From a virus, in IMG/VR virus record IMGVR_UViG_3300025769_000945, positions 1 to 22,158 of that record: a DNA stretch of 22,158 nt. One strand, written 5' to 3'. A program made the position numbers and the translations under genes. The notes below the pieces were generated by a model. That model was not told the DNA's origin, ran no database searches, and saw nothing but the letters and a program-made list of their open reading frames with translations. Shown here piece after piece: positions 3,358-17,996 of this stretch. Numbering within the stretch: the stretch's first letter is position 1; every line of letters starts with the position of its first letter.

Positions 3358-3876
3358 ATGGCGGTCCTGTGTGATTGGGAGATCAAGGCAAGGTGCCGGC
3401 AAAGCCAGATGGTCGTCCCATTCGATGAAGGCTTGTTGAACCCAGCCAGCCTTGACCTGCGCTTGGGCGATCACTTGATGATTGAAAGCATCTACAGCTC
3501 TGAGCTGGTGCGTATCAACATTGCAGACAGAACAGAGGATGACCCGTTCATGCTTCAGTCCGGCGAGTTTTGCCTGGCTGAAACACTTGAGCTGTTTAAC
3601 CTGCCCGACGACATCAGCAGTCAATTTGTACTCAAATCAAGCCGTGCAAGATCTGGTCTTAATCACTTGCTTGCTGGCTGGTGCGACCCAGGCTGGCACG
3701 GATCACGGTTGACACTCGAGCTGAAAAACGAAAGGCTGCACCATGCAATCCCGCTGTTCCCAGGCTTGAAGATTGGGCAGATGGTGTTTCATGCAATGTC
3801 CAAGACCCCAATGAAAAGCTATCGGGAAACAGGCCACTACAACAATCACCTGACCGTGATGCCCAACGTGGCGTAG
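3358..3876 (+). CDS. dcd: dCTP deaminase-like enzyme (dCTP deaminase/dUTPase family)
   Basis: Predicted 172 aa, close to the usual 170-200 of dCTP deaminases. Family motifs in order: NPASLDLRLGD (28-38), LKSSRARSGL (92-101), GWCDPGWHG (107-115), LTLELKN with the catalytic-type Glu at 121, PGLKIGQMVF (135-144) and a Tyr/Gly tail (SYRETGHYNN). Members deaminate dCTP to dUTP, or to dUMP in bifunctional forms, feeding dTTP synthesis in the cytoplasm. A phage copy would shift the pool from C to T precursors during replication. The Glu in the LTLELKN position favours deaminase over pure dUTPase. It follows the peptidase gene by 20 bases. No clear Shine-Dalgarno before the ATG. Confidence 0.85.
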   Translation: MAVLCDWEIKARCRQSQMVVPFDEGLLNPASLDLRLGDHLMIESIYSSELVRINIADRTEDDPFMLQSGEFCLAETLELFNLPDDISSQFVLKSSRARSGLNHLLAGWCDPGWHGSRLTLELKNERLHHAIPLFPGLKIGQMVFHAMSKTPMKSYRETGHYNNHLTVMPNVA

Positions 3877-9184: not shown

Positions 9185-9557
9185 CTACGACAAGGAGCAC
9201 CAGGCATGGCAGCTTCTGCAGTGGCAGATCTGGTCATTGCCTGGTGAGTTTGATGAAGACCTGGCAGCCAAGGGCTATTACACAGACCTGCAGCGCAAAC
9301 GGTCAGACCAAGCTTTAGACACTTGGGATGCTCAGCACCCTGAGGAAACCAGCCCTGAACTTGAAGCTTTCAAAGAGCTTGAGCGGCTGGGTGTTTACGG
9401 ACAACGCACATGGTTCTCGCCTTCAAAGGCCAAAGATGGGTTCTACACACGACGCCTCAAACAACGACAGCAACGCGGATCCAAGCCTTCAGGATTGCCT
9501 GGATCAGGTCGCACAACTCAAAAGCGCAGCCGTAAAAGTCGTTGGCGCAACGACTGA
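9177..9557 (+). CDS. Unknown protein upstream of helicase
   Basis: Predicted 126 aa from GTG 9177 (VIDYDKEHQAWQLLQWQIWS), Trp-rich and helical in the first 80 residues, basic at the end (RRLKQRQQRGSKPS). The GTG overlaps the stop of the ribbon-helix-helix gene. The last 122 bases overlap the predicted start of the helicase gene in another frame, so either the tail of this protein or the first 40 residues of the helicase carry little constraint. No function recognised. Confidence 0.6.
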   Translation: MIDYDKEHQAWQLLQWQIWSLPGEFDEDLAAKGYYTDLQRKRSDQALDTWDAQHPEETSPELEAFKELERLGVYGQRTWFSPSKAKDGFYTRRLKQRQQRGSKPSGLPGSGRTTQKRSRKSRWRND

Positions 9558-12072: not shown

Positions 12073-12315
12073 ATGGACCATCACAACTACATGCTCAGCC
12101 TTTTCGAGTCGTTTCAAAAGCATCAAGATGAGCTTGAAGCCACCAACCTTCTGAAGCTTCAAGCCATGGAACCTCAATGCCGCTACTACGTTGAAGCCTC
12201 GCTTGACGGCAGGCTTGAGTGGACTGAATGGGCCTACACCACTCATGAGCGTGACCAGCTGATACAAGACGCCAAGGACTGCGGCTTTTCCTACACCGTT
12301 GAGGAACACGAATGA
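12073..12315 (+). CDS. Small protein, unknown
   Basis: Predicted 80 aa, MDHHNYMLSLFESFQKHQDE, a first helical half, then a beta hairpin and helix (RYYVEASLDGRLEWTEWAYT, HERDQLIQDAKDCGF) ending in VEEHE. Second gene of the unit starting at promoter copy 3. It is followed by about 120 bases of structured non-coding sequence. Function not recognised. Confidence 0.65.
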   Translation: MDHHNYMLSLFESFQKHQDELEATNLLKLQAMEPQCRYYVEASLDGRLEWTEWAYTTHERDQLIQDAKDCGFSYTVEEHE

Positions 12316-12320
12316 TCATC

Positions 12321-12430
12321 AGTCGGGGAGCCTGATGCCTGCCATCCCCAGGCAGGCTGAAAGCTATACAACACCTTGGGTGCAGCAAGGGAAAGCAGGG
12401 CGCCTGTGTGTGGCGATCTATCCCCCGACT
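12321..12430 (+). promoter_or_regulatory. Structured non-coding stretch, possible RNA element
   Basis: AGTCGGGG (12321-12328) is the exact complement of CCCCGACT (12423-12430), an 8-base closing stem for the whole stretch. Inside are GCCTGCC/GGCAGGC (12337-12343 with 12351-12357), CCTTG/CAAGG (12374-12378 with 12386-12390) and CAGG/CCTG (12396-12399 with 12403-12406), giving a multi-arm junction. GGGGA (12325-12329) can alternatively pair with TCCCC (12345-12349), a mutually exclusive fold. No known riboswitch class was recognised. It lies just before the ATG at 12437 and upstream of the base-modification genes. Confidence 0.45.
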
Positions 12431-12436
12431 TCAAAC

Positions 12437-12613
12437 ATGGACCAACACCTCAAAACACAACAACATCTGAACAACCTTCAAGCCTTCTTGGACTATGAGC
12501 AGCGCCTCAGAGATGCCTATGCCAAATGCCAAGATCCGCAACCTCGACGACGGTTGTGTTCAGATAACGATTGGCAACATCAGCGGAACCGTAAGTTCAC
12601 ATCACTTGGTTGA
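12437..12613 (+). CDS. Small helical protein, unknown, overlaps next gene
   Basis: A 58-aa frame, MDQHLKTQQHLNNLQAFLDY, EQRLRDAYAKCQDPQPR, then a basic tail that overlaps the next frame and looks less constrained. The first 35 residues are helical and plausible. No good ribosome binding site. It directly follows the structured stretch. May be real with an overlapping successor, or just a leader frame that opens translation of the next gene. Confidence 0.45.
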   Translation: MDQHLKTQQHLNNLQAFLDYEQRLRDAYAKCQDPQPRRRLCSDNDWQHQRNRKFTSLG

Positions 12614-12671
12614 ACCGAAGCTTCGTCAACTACGGCTACTCTGGAAAGCGAATCCAGATAACTGGCAGTGA
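12513..12671 (+). CDS. Small protein coupled to ParB-like gene
   Basis: A 52-aa frame, MPMPNAKIRNLDDGCVQITI, GNISGTVSSHHLVEPKLRQL, ending LWKANPDNWQ. A beta-rich start and a helical end look protein-like. Its TGA overlaps the GTG start of the ParB-like gene (GTGA), typical of coupled phage genes. It overlaps the previous frame by about 100 bases. Function unknown. Confidence 0.55.
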   Translation: MPMPNAKIRNLDDGCVQITIGNISGTVSSHHLVEPKLRQLRLLWKANPDNWQ

Positions 12672-13261
12672 CAATCGCATCAGACAAAATCGTCCAGCGT
12701 GAAACTGAAGTTCTCAAGCCATACGAAAACAATCCACGGCAACATTCAGAAGCACAGCTTGATCGTCTTGTCCGATCAATCAAGGAGTTCGGTTTCACAA
12801 ACCCAATCCTCATTGATGATGACTGCAATGTGATCGCAGGCCATGGCCGTCTGCTGGCTGCAGAGCTGATGGGCCTAGCCCAAGTGCCGACCATCACGCT
12901 TGGCCACCTCACAGCTGAACAGCGACGGGCCTACGTCATCGCTGATAACCAGCTGGCACTCAACAGCACTTGGGATGACGACGTGCTGCAGGCTGAACTG
13001 CAGGCCTTAGGTGAAGCTGGCTTTGACCTCACGCTGCTGGGCTGGGGTGATGACCTGCCTACCTTTGGTGAGGACATTGACCTGTCCGCATTAGACGACA
13101 TGGACGATGACCCCACAGCAGAGCTGGCTGATGGTGTGATGAAGGCCATCCAGATTGAGTTCCGCCCTGAGGACTACGAAGAAGCCAAGGCCCTAGTGGA
13201 AGCAGCTCGTAAGCGTGGTGAGTACGTGGGGATGAAGCTGATTGAGGCTTTGGCTGCATGA
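12668..13261 (+). CDS. ParB/sulfiredoxin-fold domain protein
   Basis: Predicted 197 aa from GTG 12668. The N-terminal ParB-like domain covers residues 7-100: VLKPYENNPRQHSE, LVRSIKEFGFTNPILID, then VIAGHGRLLAAELMGL with the GHGR signature at 58-61 and RAYVIADNQLALNSTWD (87-103). An acidic linker (DLSALDDMDDDPTAEL) and a short C-terminal helical part (YEEAKALVEAARKRGEYVG) follow. In many phages this N-terminal architecture continues into a DNA methyltransferase, which is missing here. ParB-like phage domains are often linked to DNA modification and may be CTP- or ATP-dependent. It overlaps the glycosyltransferase gene by 4 bases (ATGA), so it likely belongs to the base-modification cassette. 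Confidence 0.85.
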   Translation: MTIASDKIVQRETEVLKPYENNPRQHSEAQLDRLVRSIKEFGFTNPILIDDDCNVIAGHGRLLAAELMGLAQVPTITLGHLTAEQRRAYVIADNQLALNSTWDDDVLQAELQALGEAGFDLTLLGWGDDLPTFGEDIDLSALDDMDDDPTAELADGVMKAIQIEFRPEDYEEAKALVEAARKRGEYVGMKLIEALAA

Positions 13262-14055
13262 TCGACTATCAGATCGCAATCCCCAGCTACAAGCGGCCAA
13301 CGCGTCTGATCACTGAAACGCTTACAACCCTGAAGCGCACCAATGCTGATTTCAGCCGTGTCACTGTCTTCGTGGCTGACAGCAATGAGAAGCACCTGTA
13401 TGACACCGCTCTGCAGGCGATTGGCCTTGGCGTCAAGGTTGTCATCAGCCAGCCAGGGCTGATCAACTCCCGCATCTGGTACAACCTGCATTACTACAAA
13501 CCCGGCACACGCATCCTCAACTTGGATGACGACATTGCTGGGCTGTACGTCAAAGACGGCAACGCCCTGCAGCCGTACACCGGCGACCTTGATCGCTTGG
13601 TGTCAAAAGGCTTTCAGGTCTGCCAAAACACTGGAGCAAGGCTTTGGGGAATCAACCCTGTGGCCAATGGCATGTTCCTCAAGCCAACCATCAGCGTCGG
13701 CCTGCGGTACATCTGTGGAATCTTCCACGGCACGTTTGCAGGTGATCCGGCCATGTGCGGTGATGACCGTCCACGCCAGTCATCTGGTGAAGACTTTGAG
13801 CTGACCCTCAGGTCGTTCAAGCGTTACAAAGGTGTGGTCCGCATTGATGGGTACTGCCCCAAGACCAAGTACTTCGCTGAAGGTGGGATCCAGGCTGAAC
13901 TTGGTGGCAAGGACAAACGTGCGAAAGACCACGAGGCTCAGCTGCAGCAGATCGTCAATCGTTTTCCCAGCATCAGCAAGCTATACATCAAGTCCGGTGA
14001 CGTGCCCAACATCAAGCTCAAAACAATCACCCACGGAAAGCTCCAGTGGATATGA
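13258..14055 (+). CDS. GT-A-type glycosyltransferase, probably TET/JBP-associated
   Basis: Predicted 265 aa. Opens with the nucleotide-sugar-binding strand and loop IAIPSYKRPTRL (7-18), then VTVFVADSNEK (35-45), and the metal-binding acidic motif RILNLDDDIAGL (85-96, Asp90-92). SSGEDFELTLRSFKRYKG (175-192) supplies the downstream acidic pair expected of the catalytic region. This layout matches the glycosyltransferases found next to phage TET/JBP dioxygenases, which add sugar to a hydroxymethylated base in DNA. I therefore infer glycosylation of 5-hydroxymethylcytosine (or hydroxymethyluracil). Overlaps by 4 bases with both neighbours. A role in glycosylating a protein or cell-surface glycan cannot be excluded from sequence alone. 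Confidence 0.8.
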   Translation: MIDYQIAIPSYKRPTRLITETLTTLKRTNADFSRVTVFVADSNEKHLYDTALQAIGLGVKVVISQPGLINSRIWYNLHYYKPGTRILNLDDDIAGLYVKDGNALQPYTGDLDRLVSKGFQVCQNTGARLWGINPVANGMFLKPTISVGLRYICGIFHGTFAGDPAMCGDDRPRQSSGEDFELTLRSFKRYKGVVRIDGYCPKTKYFAEGGIQAELGGKDKRAKDHEAQLQQIVNRFPSISKLYIKSGDVPNIKLKTITHGKLQWI

Positions 14056-14852
14056 AGCTGCCAGTTCTGACCCTGCAGCCCAAGGCGCCAAAGCTCAAGA
14101 TCGGGGACACTTGCCCAACGCTGCAGCCCAACGTCACAGAGTCCTGCATCCTTGCTGACCCTGATGGCACTCAGGTCGGCTTGTTCATCAAGCAACTGCC
14201 TGATGACTTGCGGAACCTGGTCAACATTGCTGACCACGAGGTCAACTCAACTAGGGTGCCGAAAACCATGATGGACCGTAAGCGTCCATTGCCACCAGGG
14301 CCTGACGGCAAACGCCGTTACCTGGTTATCTCGCAGTATTCAGCCATCCTTGGGAGCGTGCCGCCCAAGCCACATATGCGACGGGCCTACGGCACAAGGT
14401 CCTCTGTCCACAGCAGCAAGACCGCTGGCACATTTGTCAAAGCCATGCACAAGGCAGGCATCACCGCCTATCAGCTTGTGCAAGAGCTGGCACCTGAAGT
14501 CACCCAGCTACACAGCAGCAAGGTTCAGGCCCGTGTGCCTGAGAAGTGGCGCTTCGCAAAGCACTTCAGCAGCACCATCAGTAACTGCAACATCGCAGCG
14601 CCAATCCATCAAGATCACGCCAACGTCAAAGGCGCCATCAACATCATCATCACCAAGCGGCGCAACAGCACCGGCGGAAACTTGCATGTCCCCGACTACG
14701 ACGCCACCTTTGACCAAACGGATGGCTCGATGCTTGTCTATCCGGCATGGAGGAACTGTCACGGTGTGACGCCAATAGTTCCCACGCATCAAGGCGGCTA
14801 TCGCAACTCACACGTCTGGTACGCCCTGGATTCATTTGCATCATTAGGCTGA
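14052..14852 (+). CDS. TET/JBP-family 2-oxoglutarate/Fe(II) dioxygenase
   Basis: Predicted 266 aa from the ATG at 14052 (ATGA overlap with the glycosyltransferase stop); a GTG at 14046 with GGAAAG upstream would add two residues. The C-terminal double-stranded beta helix holds the complete active site: the iron-binding H-x-D in APIHQDHANVKGAINIII (His186, Asp188), GGNLHVPDYDATFDQTDG (208-225), the distal iron ligand His237 in RNCHGVTPI, and the 2-oxoglutarate Arg251 in GGYRNSHVWYAL. The H-x-D-x-x-N and HGVTPI contexts are those of TET/JBP enzymes, which oxidise the methyl group of 5-methylcytosine or thymine in DNA. Acting after a methylase and before the glycosyltransferase, it would create the hydroxymethyl acceptor. 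Residues 1-150 are of unclear function. Confidence 0.85.
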   Translation: MKLPVLTLQPKAPKLKIGDTCPTLQPNVTESCILADPDGTQVGLFIKQLPDDLRNLVNIADHEVNSTRVPKTMMDRKRPLPPGPDGKRRYLVISQYSAILGSVPPKPHMRRAYGTRSSVHSSKTAGTFVKAMHKAGITAYQLVQELAPEVTQLHSSKVQARVPEKWRFAKHFSSTISNCNIAAPIHQDHANVKGAINIIITKRRNSTGGNLHVPDYDATFDQTDGSMLVYPAWRNCHGVTPIVPTHQGGYRNSHVWYALDSFASLG

Positions 14853-14856
14853 AACC

Positions 14857-15183
14857 ATGGACAAGAATCCACGCTGCACAAAAGCAGAAAAGCAATTCCG
14901 GACATCGAGGTTTGCCCGGATGATTGCCAATGGGGCAACACGTTCAGACCTTTTGCAATACGCCGCAAGTGAATGGGGGCTGAAGCAAAGGCAAAGCGAT
15001 GAATACATTGCCCTAGCCACAAAGCGCCTTGAAGAAGATTTCAACTTGGATCGCCAAGCTTTTGCCGCAATACTTTTGTCCCAGCTGAACGTCGTCCATA
15101 AGAAGGGCATGGAACAGTCCAACCTTCAAGCTGTGTTGGGCTGTATCAACACCGCTGCCAAGATTGCCAAGCTGTATGACTGA
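14857..15183 (+). CDS. terS: Terminase small subunit-like protein
   Basis: Predicted 108 aa, MDKNPRCTKAEKQFRTSRFA, with an N-terminal helix-turn-helix type segment (ARMIANGATRSDLLQYAASE, about 20-39; WGLKQRQSDEYIALATKRL) and a helical C-terminal part (LSQLNVVHKKGMEQSNLQAV). Length and fold suit a TerS that recognises the packaging site and forms a ring. Its stop overlaps the ATG of TerL (TGATG). The assignment rests on position and domain pattern; sequence-level similarity between TerS families is low. Confidence 0.75.
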   Translation: MDKNPRCTKAEKQFRTSRFARMIANGATRSDLLQYAASEWGLKQRQSDEYIALATKRLEEDFNLDRQAFAAILLSQLNVVHKKGMEQSNLQAVLGCINTAAKIAKLYD

Positions 15184-16532
15184 TGGGTGTTCTGTCCACG
15201 ATTCCAAGGGGCAACATCCTTCAACGGCTTGGGGCTGAGGACAGCCAGATTGATGTAGATCGGCTGCTGCAGCAGGTGAGGGCTGACCTGCACCCTGGCC
15301 AGCTGGCCTTTGTTGAAGACGAACAGACGCAGATCATTGGACTCTCTGCTGGCTATGGCGCCGGCAAGACCAGGGCATTGGCTGCCAAGACCCTGCACCT
15401 TGCAGCTGCTAATCAGGGCTTCATTGGCTGTGTGATGGAGCCGACCGGCCCATTGGTCAGGGACATTTGGCAGAACGACTTCGAGGGCTTCCTAGAGGCA
15501 TATGAGGTGCCGTACACCCACAGGGCATCACCTTTGCCTGAGTACACATTGCACCTGCCTGGTGGTGACACGAAGATCCTGTGCCGCAGCTTTGAGAACT
15601 GGTCACGGATCATTGGCCTCAACTTGGCCTTTGTCCTTGCTGATGAGATTGACACGGTCAACCCCAGCGTTTGCTCAAGGGCGTTTCCCAAGATTCTTGG
15701 CCGCTTGCGTTCAGGCAACGTCAGGCAGTTCGCAGCAGCATCAACGCCTGAAGGTTTTCGTTGGATGTGGCAAACCTTTGGTACGGATGACGCAAAACAG
15801 CGTGATGACCGCAAGCTGATTAGGATGCGATCGGCAGATAATCCACATCTGCCCCAAGACTTCATCGAACGGCTGCAGGCCAACTACGACCCATCACTTC
15901 TCCAGGCGTATCTGGAAGGTCAGTTCTGCAACCTCACAACAGGCCAGGTTTACGACCGCTTCGACCGGGCCAAACACATCACAACAGAACAGAACGATTT
16001 CAGCTCTGAACCTTTGCGGGTTGGCGTTGACTTCAATATTGGCAACATGTCAGCCGTCATCGGTGTCCGTCTTGGCAACCAACTATTGCTGATCGATGAG
16101 GTCAGCGGTGCCCATGACACCGACGCTTTGGGTCAAGAAATACGCAGAAGATTTCCCGACAACCGCGTATATATCTACCCTGACGCATCAGGCGGAGCAC
16201 GATCTACTAACGCCAGCCAGACCGACATCCAGATCTTGGAAACCTATGGCTTCATCAATCAATCGCCAAGGTCAAACCCTCCCGTTCGTGATCGGGTGGC
16301 TGCTGTACAAGCTGTTCTGGAGAACGGCAAAGGTGAAGTCAGGCTGCAGGTAGCAAGCAACTGCAAGCGAACGATTGAGTGCCTTGAGCTGCAGTCATAT
16401 ACAGAACGTGGCGAGCCAGACAAAGATGCTGGCTATGACCACATGAATGACGCCCTTGGTTATTTGATTTGGCGTGAGTTCAATCCGCTGCATCAACGTG
16501 CTGGACGGGGCACAGGCATCAGGCTTTACTAA
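15183..16532 (+). CDS. terL: Terminase large subunit
   Basis: Predicted 449 aa. ATPase domain: Walker A LSAGYGAGKTRALA (54-67, Lys62, Thr63), Walker B AFVLADEID (148-156, Asp153, Glu154), coupling motif AAASTPEG (183-190). RNase H-fold nuclease domain: VGVDFNIGNMSAVIG (279-293, Asp282), YIYPDASGG (329-337, Asp333) and DHMNDALGY (418-426, Asp422), the metal-binding acidic set. It pumps DNA into the prohead and cuts it. Starts with the TGATG overlap after TerS. Length is at the short end of TerL proteins but all motifs are present. Confidence 0.95.
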   Translation: MGVLSTIPRGNILQRLGAEDSQIDVDRLLQQVRADLHPGQLAFVEDEQTQIIGLSAGYGAGKTRALAAKTLHLAAANQGFIGCVMEPTGPLVRDIWQNDFEGFLEAYEVPYTHRASPLPEYTLHLPGGDTKILCRSFENWSRIIGLNLAFVLADEIDTVNPSVCSRAFPKILGRLRSGNVRQFAAASTPEGFRWMWQTFGTDDAKQRDDRKLIRMRSADNPHLPQDFIERLQANYDPSLLQAYLEGQFCNLTTGQVYDRFDRAKHITTEQNDFSSEPLRVGVDFNIGNMSAVIGVRLGNQLLLIDEVSGAHDTDALGQEIRRRFPDNRVYIYPDASGGARSTNASQTDIQILETYGFINQSPRSNPPVRDRVAAVQAVLENGKGEVRLQVASNCKRTIECLELQSYTERGEPDKDAGYDHMNDALGYLIWREFNPLHQRAGRGTGIRLY

Positions 16533-16559
16533 GCTGCAGGAACTGGGTGGTTTGCAGCT

Positions 16560-17996
16560 GTGTACTCGGGTCTTTCTGGTCGCCAACGTGTAGGCAACGT
16601 TACGCAGGTCAATGACCCGAATACTGCCTGGGTAAACATGGAGCCGCATTGGCTCTTGATTGAAACCCTGCTGCTGGGCACGTACGGCATCAGAAAAAAA
16701 CACCGGACATATTTGCCACAAGAACCAAGAGAACTGGATGAGGCATATGACAACCGCCTGCTGAGAAGTGTTCTTGCGCCGTTCTATGTGCGCTTAGAGC
16801 GCATGCTTGCGGGCATGTTGACCCGCAAGCCTGTGCGGCTGACAGACGTATCAGACAACATCCGTGAGCAGTTGTTCGACGTTGACTTGCAGGGCAATGA
16901 CCTGAACGTCTGGACTTATGAAACTGCACGCAAGTGCGTGCGATATGGCCACGTTGGTGTCCTTGTTGATGCGCCTGCCGCTGGTGCTGATGGGCGCCCG
17001 TACTGGGTGACTTATACGCCACGGGACATACTCGGCTGGCGTGTGGAAAACGCTGACGGCAAACAGACCCTGACCCAGCTGCGGTTGATGGAACGTGTTG
17101 TTGTTCCTGATGGCTTGTATGGGGAAAAAGAAGTGCAGCAGGTTCGCGTTCTGACGCCTGGCGCTTTTGAGATCCACCAAAAGGATGCAAAGGGTGATTT
17201 CCGTGTTGTTGAGGAAGGCACGACCAGCCTTAATGAAATTCCGTTTGCCGTTGCTTATGCCAACCGGACCAACGTGCTGGAGTCCAACCCGCCATTGGCT
17301 GACATTGCAGAACTGAACCTGAAGCAGTACCAAGTCCAGTCAGATTTGGACAATCAGCTGCACATCTCAGCTGTGCCGATGCTGGCTTTCTACGGATTTC
17401 CACAGGCCGCTGAAGAAGTGTCTGCAGGGCCTGGTGAAGCTATTGCATTCCCTGCTGATGGCCGTGCTGAATACATCGAGCCTGGTGGCCGCAGCTACGA
17501 GGCTCAGTTCAAGCGACTGGATCAGATCGCATCACAGATCAACGAACTTGGCCTTGCTGCTGTGTTGGGGCAAAAGCTCAGCGCAGAGACAGCAGAGGCA
17601 AAGCGCATTGATCGCAGCCAAGGCGACAGCACCATGATGGTCATCGCACAACAGATGCAAGACCTGATCGACAACTGCCTTGGCTTTCATGCTGCGTTCT
17701 TGCAGGAACAACAGGCAGGCAGCAGCTTTGTGAACCGCGACTTCCTTGCATCACGGCTCGAGCCGCAAGAGATCCAAGCCCTGCTGCAGCTGTACACCGC
17801 AGGCACCATCACTCAAAAGACATTGCTCGACCAGCTTGAGGCTGGTGAAGTGCTGGGTGATGAGTTTGACGTTGAAGAAGAAGTTGAAGCTACTCAGAAC
17901 GGTGGTTTGGTTGACCCCGTTGAGCCACGCCAACCTGCTGCTGAAACCATGCCCGAGGGCCAAGCTGAGGCTGACGATGAGCAGATGCCTGACTGA
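16560..17996 (+). CDS. Portal protein (DUF4055-like)
   Basis: Predicted 478 aa from GTG 16560 (VYSGLSGRQRVGNVTQVNDP). Typical portal features: N-terminal clip/wing region with WLLIETLLLGTYGIRKK (31-47) and LPQEPRELDEAYDNRLLRSV (52-71), a beta-rich wing around 130-230 (YTPRDILGWRVENADG), then the stem/crown helices including LKQYQVQSDLDNQLHISAVP, FKRLDQIASQINELGLAAVL and TAEAKRIDRSQGDSTMMVIA. The acidic C-terminal tail (EVEATQNGG, EADDEQMPD) is usual. The layout matches the DUF4055 portal group of phages that also carry a MuF protein. It forms the dodecameric DNA channel in the capsid vertex. Position between TerL and MuF agrees. Confidence 0.88.
   Translation: MYSGLSGRQRVGNVTQVNDPNTAWVNMEPHWLLIETLLLGTYGIRKKHRTYLPQEPRELDEAYDNRLLRSVLAPFYVRLERMLAGMLTRKPVRLTDVSDNIREQLFDVDLQGNDLNVWTYETARKCVRYGHVGVLVDAPAAGADGRPYWVTYTPRDILGWRVENADGKQTLTQLRLMERVVVPDGLYGEKEVQQVRVLTPGAFEIHQKDAKGDFRVVEEGTTSLNEIPFAVAYANRTNVLESNPPLADIAELNLKQYQVQSDLDNQLHISAVPMLAFYGFPQAAEEVSAGPGEAIAFPADGRAEYIEPGGRSYEAQFKRLDQIASQINELGLAAVLGQKLSAETAEAKRIDRSQGDSTMMVIAQQMQDLIDNCLGFHAAFLQEQQAGSSFVNRDFLASRLEPQEIQALLQLYTAGTITQKTLLDQLEAGEVLGDEFDVEEEVEATQNGGLVDPVEPRQPAAETMPEGQAEADDEQMPD

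Follow-up and report, generated by a model that had tools for sequence, protein, structure and literature searches.

An exchangeable tailoring gene between ParB and TET in cyanosiphoviruses, and a probable route to modified thymine in phage DNA

The 22,158-base stretch analyzed here (the window), an IMG/VR virus record that represents a fragment of a cyanosiphovirus genome, carries at positions 12668-14852 a three-gene cassette encoding a ParB-like protein, a TET-associated glycosyltransferase (TAGT), and a TET/JBP dioxygenase. The cassette is translationally coupled and almost certainly devoted to DNA hypermodification. Associations of TET, TAGT, and ParB in phages are already known; what is new is that the position between ParB and TET is an exchangeable tailoring slot, which also exists in an FkbM methyltransferase form in isolated Prochlorococcus phages. 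We found no description in the searchable literature of such a ParB/TET slot with FkbM as its commonest occupant (among the loci sampled). The chemistry that we consider probable is the conversion of thymine into 5-hydroxymethyluracil (5hmU) and then into a base-J-like glycosyl-5hmU in the phage's own DNA, carried out by a ParB-TET core and the swappable slot enzyme.

The window covers 22 kb of an expected genome of ~39 kb. Judged by the dioxygenase, its closest isolates are MED4-117 and P-HS2/MED4-184, two phages of Prochlorococcus (66% identity across the whole protein), and the DNA of the terminase/portal region is ~70% identical to that of the Synechococcus phages KBS-S-2A and S-H1. Upstream of the cassette lie a primase-helicase gene (at 9328) and small genes, and packaging genes follow directly downstream, the order being a gene for a 108-aa protein, the terminase large subunit, the portal (at 16560), and head genes (Table 1). 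The 108-aa protein lies where a small terminase subunit would be encoded and may, judging from this location, have that function. A dCTP deaminase is encoded elsewhere in the window (3358-3876; phrog_1663, 2.5e-47) and could supply thymidine nucleotides.

Table 1. Positions of the cassette, its junctions, and the adjoining packaging genes in the window.
Feature	Position	Strand	Basis
ParB-like protein, 197 aa, GTG start	12668..13261	+	Pfam ParB_N 4.8e-7, phrog_620 1.6e-48
ATGA overlap, ParB stop / glycosyltransferase start	13258..13261	+	sequence
TET-associated glycosyltransferase (TAGT type A), 265 aa, ATG start	13258..14055	+	Pfam TAGT 1.2e-7; GT-A fold
Slot	13262..14051	+	DNA homology to type B relatives ends at ~13262 and resumes at 14052-14058
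ATGA overlap, glycosyltransferase stop / TET start	14052..14055	+	sequence; kept across slot types (90/102 scored loci)
TET/JBP-family Fe(II)/2OG dioxygenase, 266 aa	14052..14852	+	Pfam Tet_JBP 1.2e-7, AlphaFold2 model, Foldseek
108-aa protein between TET and terminase large subunit	14857..15183	+	phrog_34910 1.4e-27; adjoins TET in nearly all cyanophage-clade loci
Terminase large subunit	15183..16532	+	Pfam Terminase_6N 5.1e-9, Terminase_6C

The four-base overlaps reported in the first-pass annotation are present at both junctions, each as ATGA, and the motifs that it listed can be read intact in the window proteins: GHGR, of the GHxR type, at residue 58 of ParB, LDDD, of the DxD type, at residues 89-92 of the glycosyltransferase, and HxD...H...R in the dioxygenase. 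The ORF finder picks a GTG at 14046 as the start of the dioxygenase, and we adopt the ATG at 14052 instead because the four-base overlap requires it. The order of the three genes is the same in dozens of relatives, and dN/dS lies between 0.01 and 0.15 for all three genes wherever dS was measurable, two of the glycosyltransferase comparisons being saturated. All three genes are under purifying selection, and this, together with the conserved order, argues that the cassette is real and selected rather than a product of chance.

In the dioxygenase, the catalytic residues H186 and D188 (HxD), H237, and the 2OG-binding R251 are invariant across an alignment of 39 sequences (A4). Its match to Tet_JBP (PF12851) scores 31.5 bits against a curated cut-off of 34.9, which is a database threshold and not a biological feature; the relative L045 exceeds it with 35.7 bits. 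In a Foldseek search of the PDB with the AlphaFold2 model (pLDDT 94.4), the top 26 hits are all TET2, CcTET, CMD1, and NgTET1, while FTO and AlkB come after. Membership in the TET family is settled by the predicted fold, a TET-type double-stranded beta-helix, and an affiliation outside TET/JBP, for example with prolyl hydroxylase-like enzymes, is not what the search returns. The glycosyltransferase passes the TAGT cut-off (PF20691, 32.3 bits against 27.5), its model (pLDDT 89.6) has a GT-A fold according to Foldseek, and full-length homologues (30-31% identity) directly follow TET in mycobacteriophages. The earlier assignment of the dioxygenase to the TET family and of its coupled neighbor to the TET-associated glycosyltransferases agrees with the TAGT match and with both folds. 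The ParB-like protein passes the ParB_N cut-off (PF02195, 30.2 bits against 26.3). ParB is encoded within 6 kb of 188 of the 197 distinct TETs and is a constant upstream partner of the dioxygenase. The ParB gene of MED4-117 (CPWG_00024) is labeled "DNA methylase"; position and similarity identify it as the ParB homologue, and the label probably reflects fusions between ParB domains and methyltransferases (phrog_498).

The cassette had been expected to be unusual in a phage with cyanophage-like genes, which turns out not to be the case. From an IMG/VR scan with the window dioxygenase, the best 80 of 146 relatives were kept, and three further scans were added. The matches listed comprise 206 distinct TET neighborhoods, 108 belonging to the cyanophage clade and 98 to a second, actinophage-like clade, and the cassette core is also present in the Prochlorococcus isolates MED4-117 and P-HS2. 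No TET was detectable in the sister cyanophages KBS-S-2A and S-H1, and the cassette is therefore dispensable. Among bacterial genomes, the TET family was found in 1 of 397 and in 1 of 396, in both cases the seed genome. A Pedobacter locus (L293:7010-9916) contains, as judged by eye, a ParB-like ORF before TET, an ORF resembling a terminase small subunit after it, and also an integrase-like ORF, and by the same inspection may be a Bacteroidota prophage sharing the ParB-TET core.

As to the base that is modified, the first-pass annotation had predicted glycosylated hydroxymethylcytosine. Formation of 5-methylcytosine (5mC) needs the prior action of a C5-methyltransferase. None is encoded in the window (22 kb of the expected ~39 kb); one could lie on the remaining part of this phage's genome, and 5mC may also be supplied by the host. 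In the cyanophage clade, PF00145 occurs in 3 of 69 records (2/22 and 1/47). Of the ten records that reach 35 kb or more, eight are without a C5-methyltransferase, including MED4-117 and P-HS2, and neither of the two that have one is a Prochlorococcus isolate. Seven actinophage genomes with ParB-TET contain none, and with a locally built profile just 5 of the 197 distinct TETs are seen to have the enzyme within 6 kb. It lies ~4 kb upstream of TET in three records with an FkbM slot (G010, G011, G060) and somewhere in the record in 8 of 50 cases from the second clade. S-H1 carries one as well, although TET is undetectable there, and the enzyme is therefore a stand-alone gene of the neighborhood. 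We conclude that the C5-methyltransferase is a sporadic neighbor, unlike in the phage clusters as far as these are summarized in PMC12730594. A search for 5mC-linked phage TETs that could serve as a contrast gave none in four further viral scans and in the 397 and 396 bacterial genomes.

The nearest homologues outside the cyanophages provide a second indication. Behind the TET gene of the second clade come an amino acid:DNA transferase (ADDT) and a P-loop kinase annotated as a 5-hmU DNA kinase, and in the actinophage homologues the order is ParB-TET-ADDT-kinase-terminase, a gene set that the authors of the Tonitrus genome describe as a possible thymidine hypermodification system (PMC11955845). 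These markers of a thymine pathway are present in many second-clade loci. Their absence from the 6 kb around TET in cyanophage-clade loci counts against the thymine reading.

The third indication comes from the base-reading residues, which in the window enzyme are N191 and L259. Eight residues after the 2OG-binding Arg (Arg+8), TET2 and NgTET1 have a His (H1904 and H297, respectively), which contacts the 5mC base; it aligns with Leu in the phage profile, Leu259 in the window. Of the 193 readable phage TETs, 181 have Leu at Arg+8 and none has His, in a comparison whose only 5mC TETs are TET2 and NgTET1. By analogy, the Arg+8 His may be a mark of 5mC TETs. The residue at HxD+5 was also considered as a base discriminator and proved uninformative, being Asn in 195 of 197 TETs, with Asn191 of the window matching N1387 of TET2. 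Taken together, the rarity of the C5-methyltransferase, the kinase/ADDT context, and the replaced His favor thymine over cytosine as the base, and glycosylated hydroxymethylcytosine becomes the less favored product; none of the three is proof.

An alternative that we have also considered is that TET oxidizes 5mC to 5-hydroxymethylcytosine, which TAGT then glycosylates, the 5mC originating from the host or from an unlinked phage methyltransferase. The nearest solved structures are indeed those of 5mC enzymes, and to our knowledge few or no structures of thymine hydroxylases are available for comparison. Those phage TETs that have been characterized use 5mC as their substrate (Burke et al. 2021, cited in PMC12730594), and the records with a C5-methyltransferase mentioned above, three in the cyanophage clade and 8 of 50 in the second, are in line with such a pathway. 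However, the methyltransferase shows neither linkage to TET nor regular co-occurrence with it, the cytosine-reading His is replaced, and homologues reside in kinase/ADDT clusters. We therefore regard this alternative as unlikely, if still worth serious attention.

The evidence for the exchangeable slot comes from comparison of the loci. Among the matches listed, the 108 cyanophage-clade loci have in this position TAGT type A in 24 (the window included), TAGT type B in 13, and an FkbM methyltransferase in 66, while the slot is empty in four and one locus is truncated. The three types of occupant have no mutual matches at E below 1e-3; types A and B both match the TAGT profile, and the FkbM proteins match PF05050 at 1e-9 to 1e-11. 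In a blastn comparison of the window with L020, homology extends over 12080-13262 (89%) and 14052-17500 (82%), whereas the slot DNA in between is ~43% identical, the level of unrelated sequence. Even a type A occupant can differ, as in L009 and L006, where the slot protein is only 56% identical while TET is 99% identical. When mapped on the TET tree, the slot labels change at least 10 times, several of the changes being forced by well-supported branches; because the tree is built from TET, which adjoins the slot, it counts moves of the slot gene relative to TET. The window glycosyltransferase thus sits in an exchangeable slot, in which the gene is swapped singly and the homology breaks coincide with the gene borders.

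It could be argued that this position is a hot spot where unrelated accessory genes insert and that the glycosyltransferase is unconnected with TET, as the occupants share no sequence similarity and some slots are empty. Such an explanation is very unlikely, since almost all occupied slots hold just one ORF, the enzyme classes found are all hydroxyl-modifying, and the slot gene is joined to TET by ATGA in 90 of the 102 scored loci, whichever the occupant. In addition, homologues of the window glycosyltransferase adjoin TET in actinophages and in S-CBWM1, and the family itself is named TET-associated. TAGT and FkbM are mutually exclusive in the slot (17 larger records), with one record having an extra, unlinked FkbM gene. 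A second FkbM methyltransferase outside the slot was also noticed on the minus strand of L045 (404-844), a locus whose slot contains TAGT type B.

Some further observations on these loci can be mentioned here. In the four loci with an empty slot (L248, L261, L263, L264), ParB and TET have no tailoring gene between them, which would leave the 5-hydroxymethyl pyrimidine bare. The GC content is mostly low in loci with an FkbM slot (median 38%) and high in those with TAGT type A (median 54%), as if the slot type tracked the host, Prochlorococcus versus Synechococcus. In L039, L041-L044, and L047, the terminase large subunit is only 23-29% identical to that of the window, while the flanking TET (68-81%) and portal (~75%) are conserved; from these identities, the terminase gene looks to have been likewise exchanged in some members.

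The idea that TET acts on a deoxynucleotide or on RNA, such as tRNA, instead of phage DNA can draw on the name queuine tRNA-ribosyltransferase given to it in RefSeq records and in phrog_6059, but it is extremely improbable, as Pfam gives no queuine-transferase match, the fold is that of TET, the terminase adjoins, and the ADDT and DNA kinase partners of the homologues point to DNA. The queuine name itself is rejected on the same Pfam and fold results. The TET-like genes of Cr30 and S-CBWM1 carry instead the label "SNF2 DNA repair protein". These labels, together with "DNA methylase", are spread over NC_020857.1, NC_020847.1, NC_047987.1, and other RefSeq phage records as well as phrog_6059, and look like propagated misannotations.

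On the basis of the above, we propose a mechanism for the thymine pathway in which the hypermodified base would be made after replication, close to packaging. In the first step, the TET-type dioxygenase would hydroxylate the 5-methyl group of a DNA pyrimidine, most likely thymine, to give 5hmU. In the second step, the slot enzyme would cap the new hydroxyl, the GT-A enzyme of the window adding a sugar to yield the base-J-like glycosyl-5hmU. TAGT and FkbM-type O-methyltransferases both act on hydroxyls, which fits the CH2OH product of TET; the FkbM protein would, judging from its family, perform an O-methylation. Because the slot is exchanged as a single gene, related phages would decorate this hydroxyl differently, with another sugar, possibly with a methyl ether, or with nothing. 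The ParB-like protein probably serves to target the enzymes to phage DNA or to load them there; that it is constant, co-translated, and encoded near the terminase suggests a part in DNA loading, in choosing sites, or in a connection with packaging. What we infer from these data is DNA as the substrate, thymine as the modified base, a sugar as the added group, the part played by ParB, and a protective or packaging purpose. The full scheme, a modular base-J-like decoration of thymine in which one repeatedly recombined gene next to a fixed ParB-TET core sets a sugar (of two kinds) or a methyl ether, is put forward only tentatively. If true, the methyl ether variant would be 5-methoxymethyluracil, and we know of no DNA that contains this base.

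The cassette can be compared with several known systems. The actinophage ParB-TET clusters (Tonitrus, Wooper, and Prince, with Indlovu and Prairie representing a TAGT + PIG-L form) likewise have ParB just before TET, tailoring genes followed in most by the terminase, no C5-methyltransferase, and Leu or Ile at the base-reading position. They differ in that the tailoring genes come after TET rather than between ParB and TET, in their use of a 5hmU kinase, ADDT, and PIG-L, for none of which the cyanophage clade gave a match within 6 kb, and in their TETs, which are only ~22-28% identical. The phage 5mC-TET clusters of Burke et al. 2021 similarly combine TET with glycosyltransferases for DNA hypermodification, but their defining partner, as far as the source conveys it, is a C5-methyltransferase, which the window cassette lacks. 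Kinetoplastid base J (JBP1/JBP2 and JGT) follows the proposed logic of thymine hydroxylation in DNA and subsequent glycosylation by a separate enzyme; the window cassette has no recognized base-J-binding domain and has instead ParB and a phage packaging context. In T4 (dCMP hydroxymethylase and alpha/beta-glucosyltransferases), a sugar is also placed on a hydroxymethyl pyrimidine of phage DNA. However, T4 modifies at the nucleotide level, and base synthesis of the thymidylate-synthase type was rejected here, as no enzyme of that family (PF00303) is found in 22 related records. The T4 glycosyltransferases moreover have a GT-B fold, unlike the GT-A enzyme of the window. In the T4-like cyanophage S-CBWM1 (gp8-gp9), a TET-like protein adjoins a TAGT of the window's type, also with no C5-methyltransferase; it differs in belonging to another TET lineage (478 aa), annotated as SNF2 repair protein, and in having no adjacent annotated ParB. 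At this locus (L372:3729-6061), TET (Tet_JBP 4.3e-18) and TAGT are followed by glucose-1-phosphate thymidylyltransferase and other sugar genes.

Protection against host nucleases, the purpose given in the first-pass annotation, is possible, but the argument for it is weakened by the scarcity of restriction-modification systems: many Prochlorococcus have few or none, and in marine Synechococcus they are rare (PMC8262939, PMC9910659); plain restriction escape is therefore no obvious reason for the cassette. Since isolates that share this core exist among the phages of Prochlorococcus MED4, the question of the base is testable on real virions. The persistence of repeatedly swapped DNA decorations in phages whose hosts are often without restriction-modification is a puzzle, and it hints at packaging, phage-phage competition, or unrecognized defenses.
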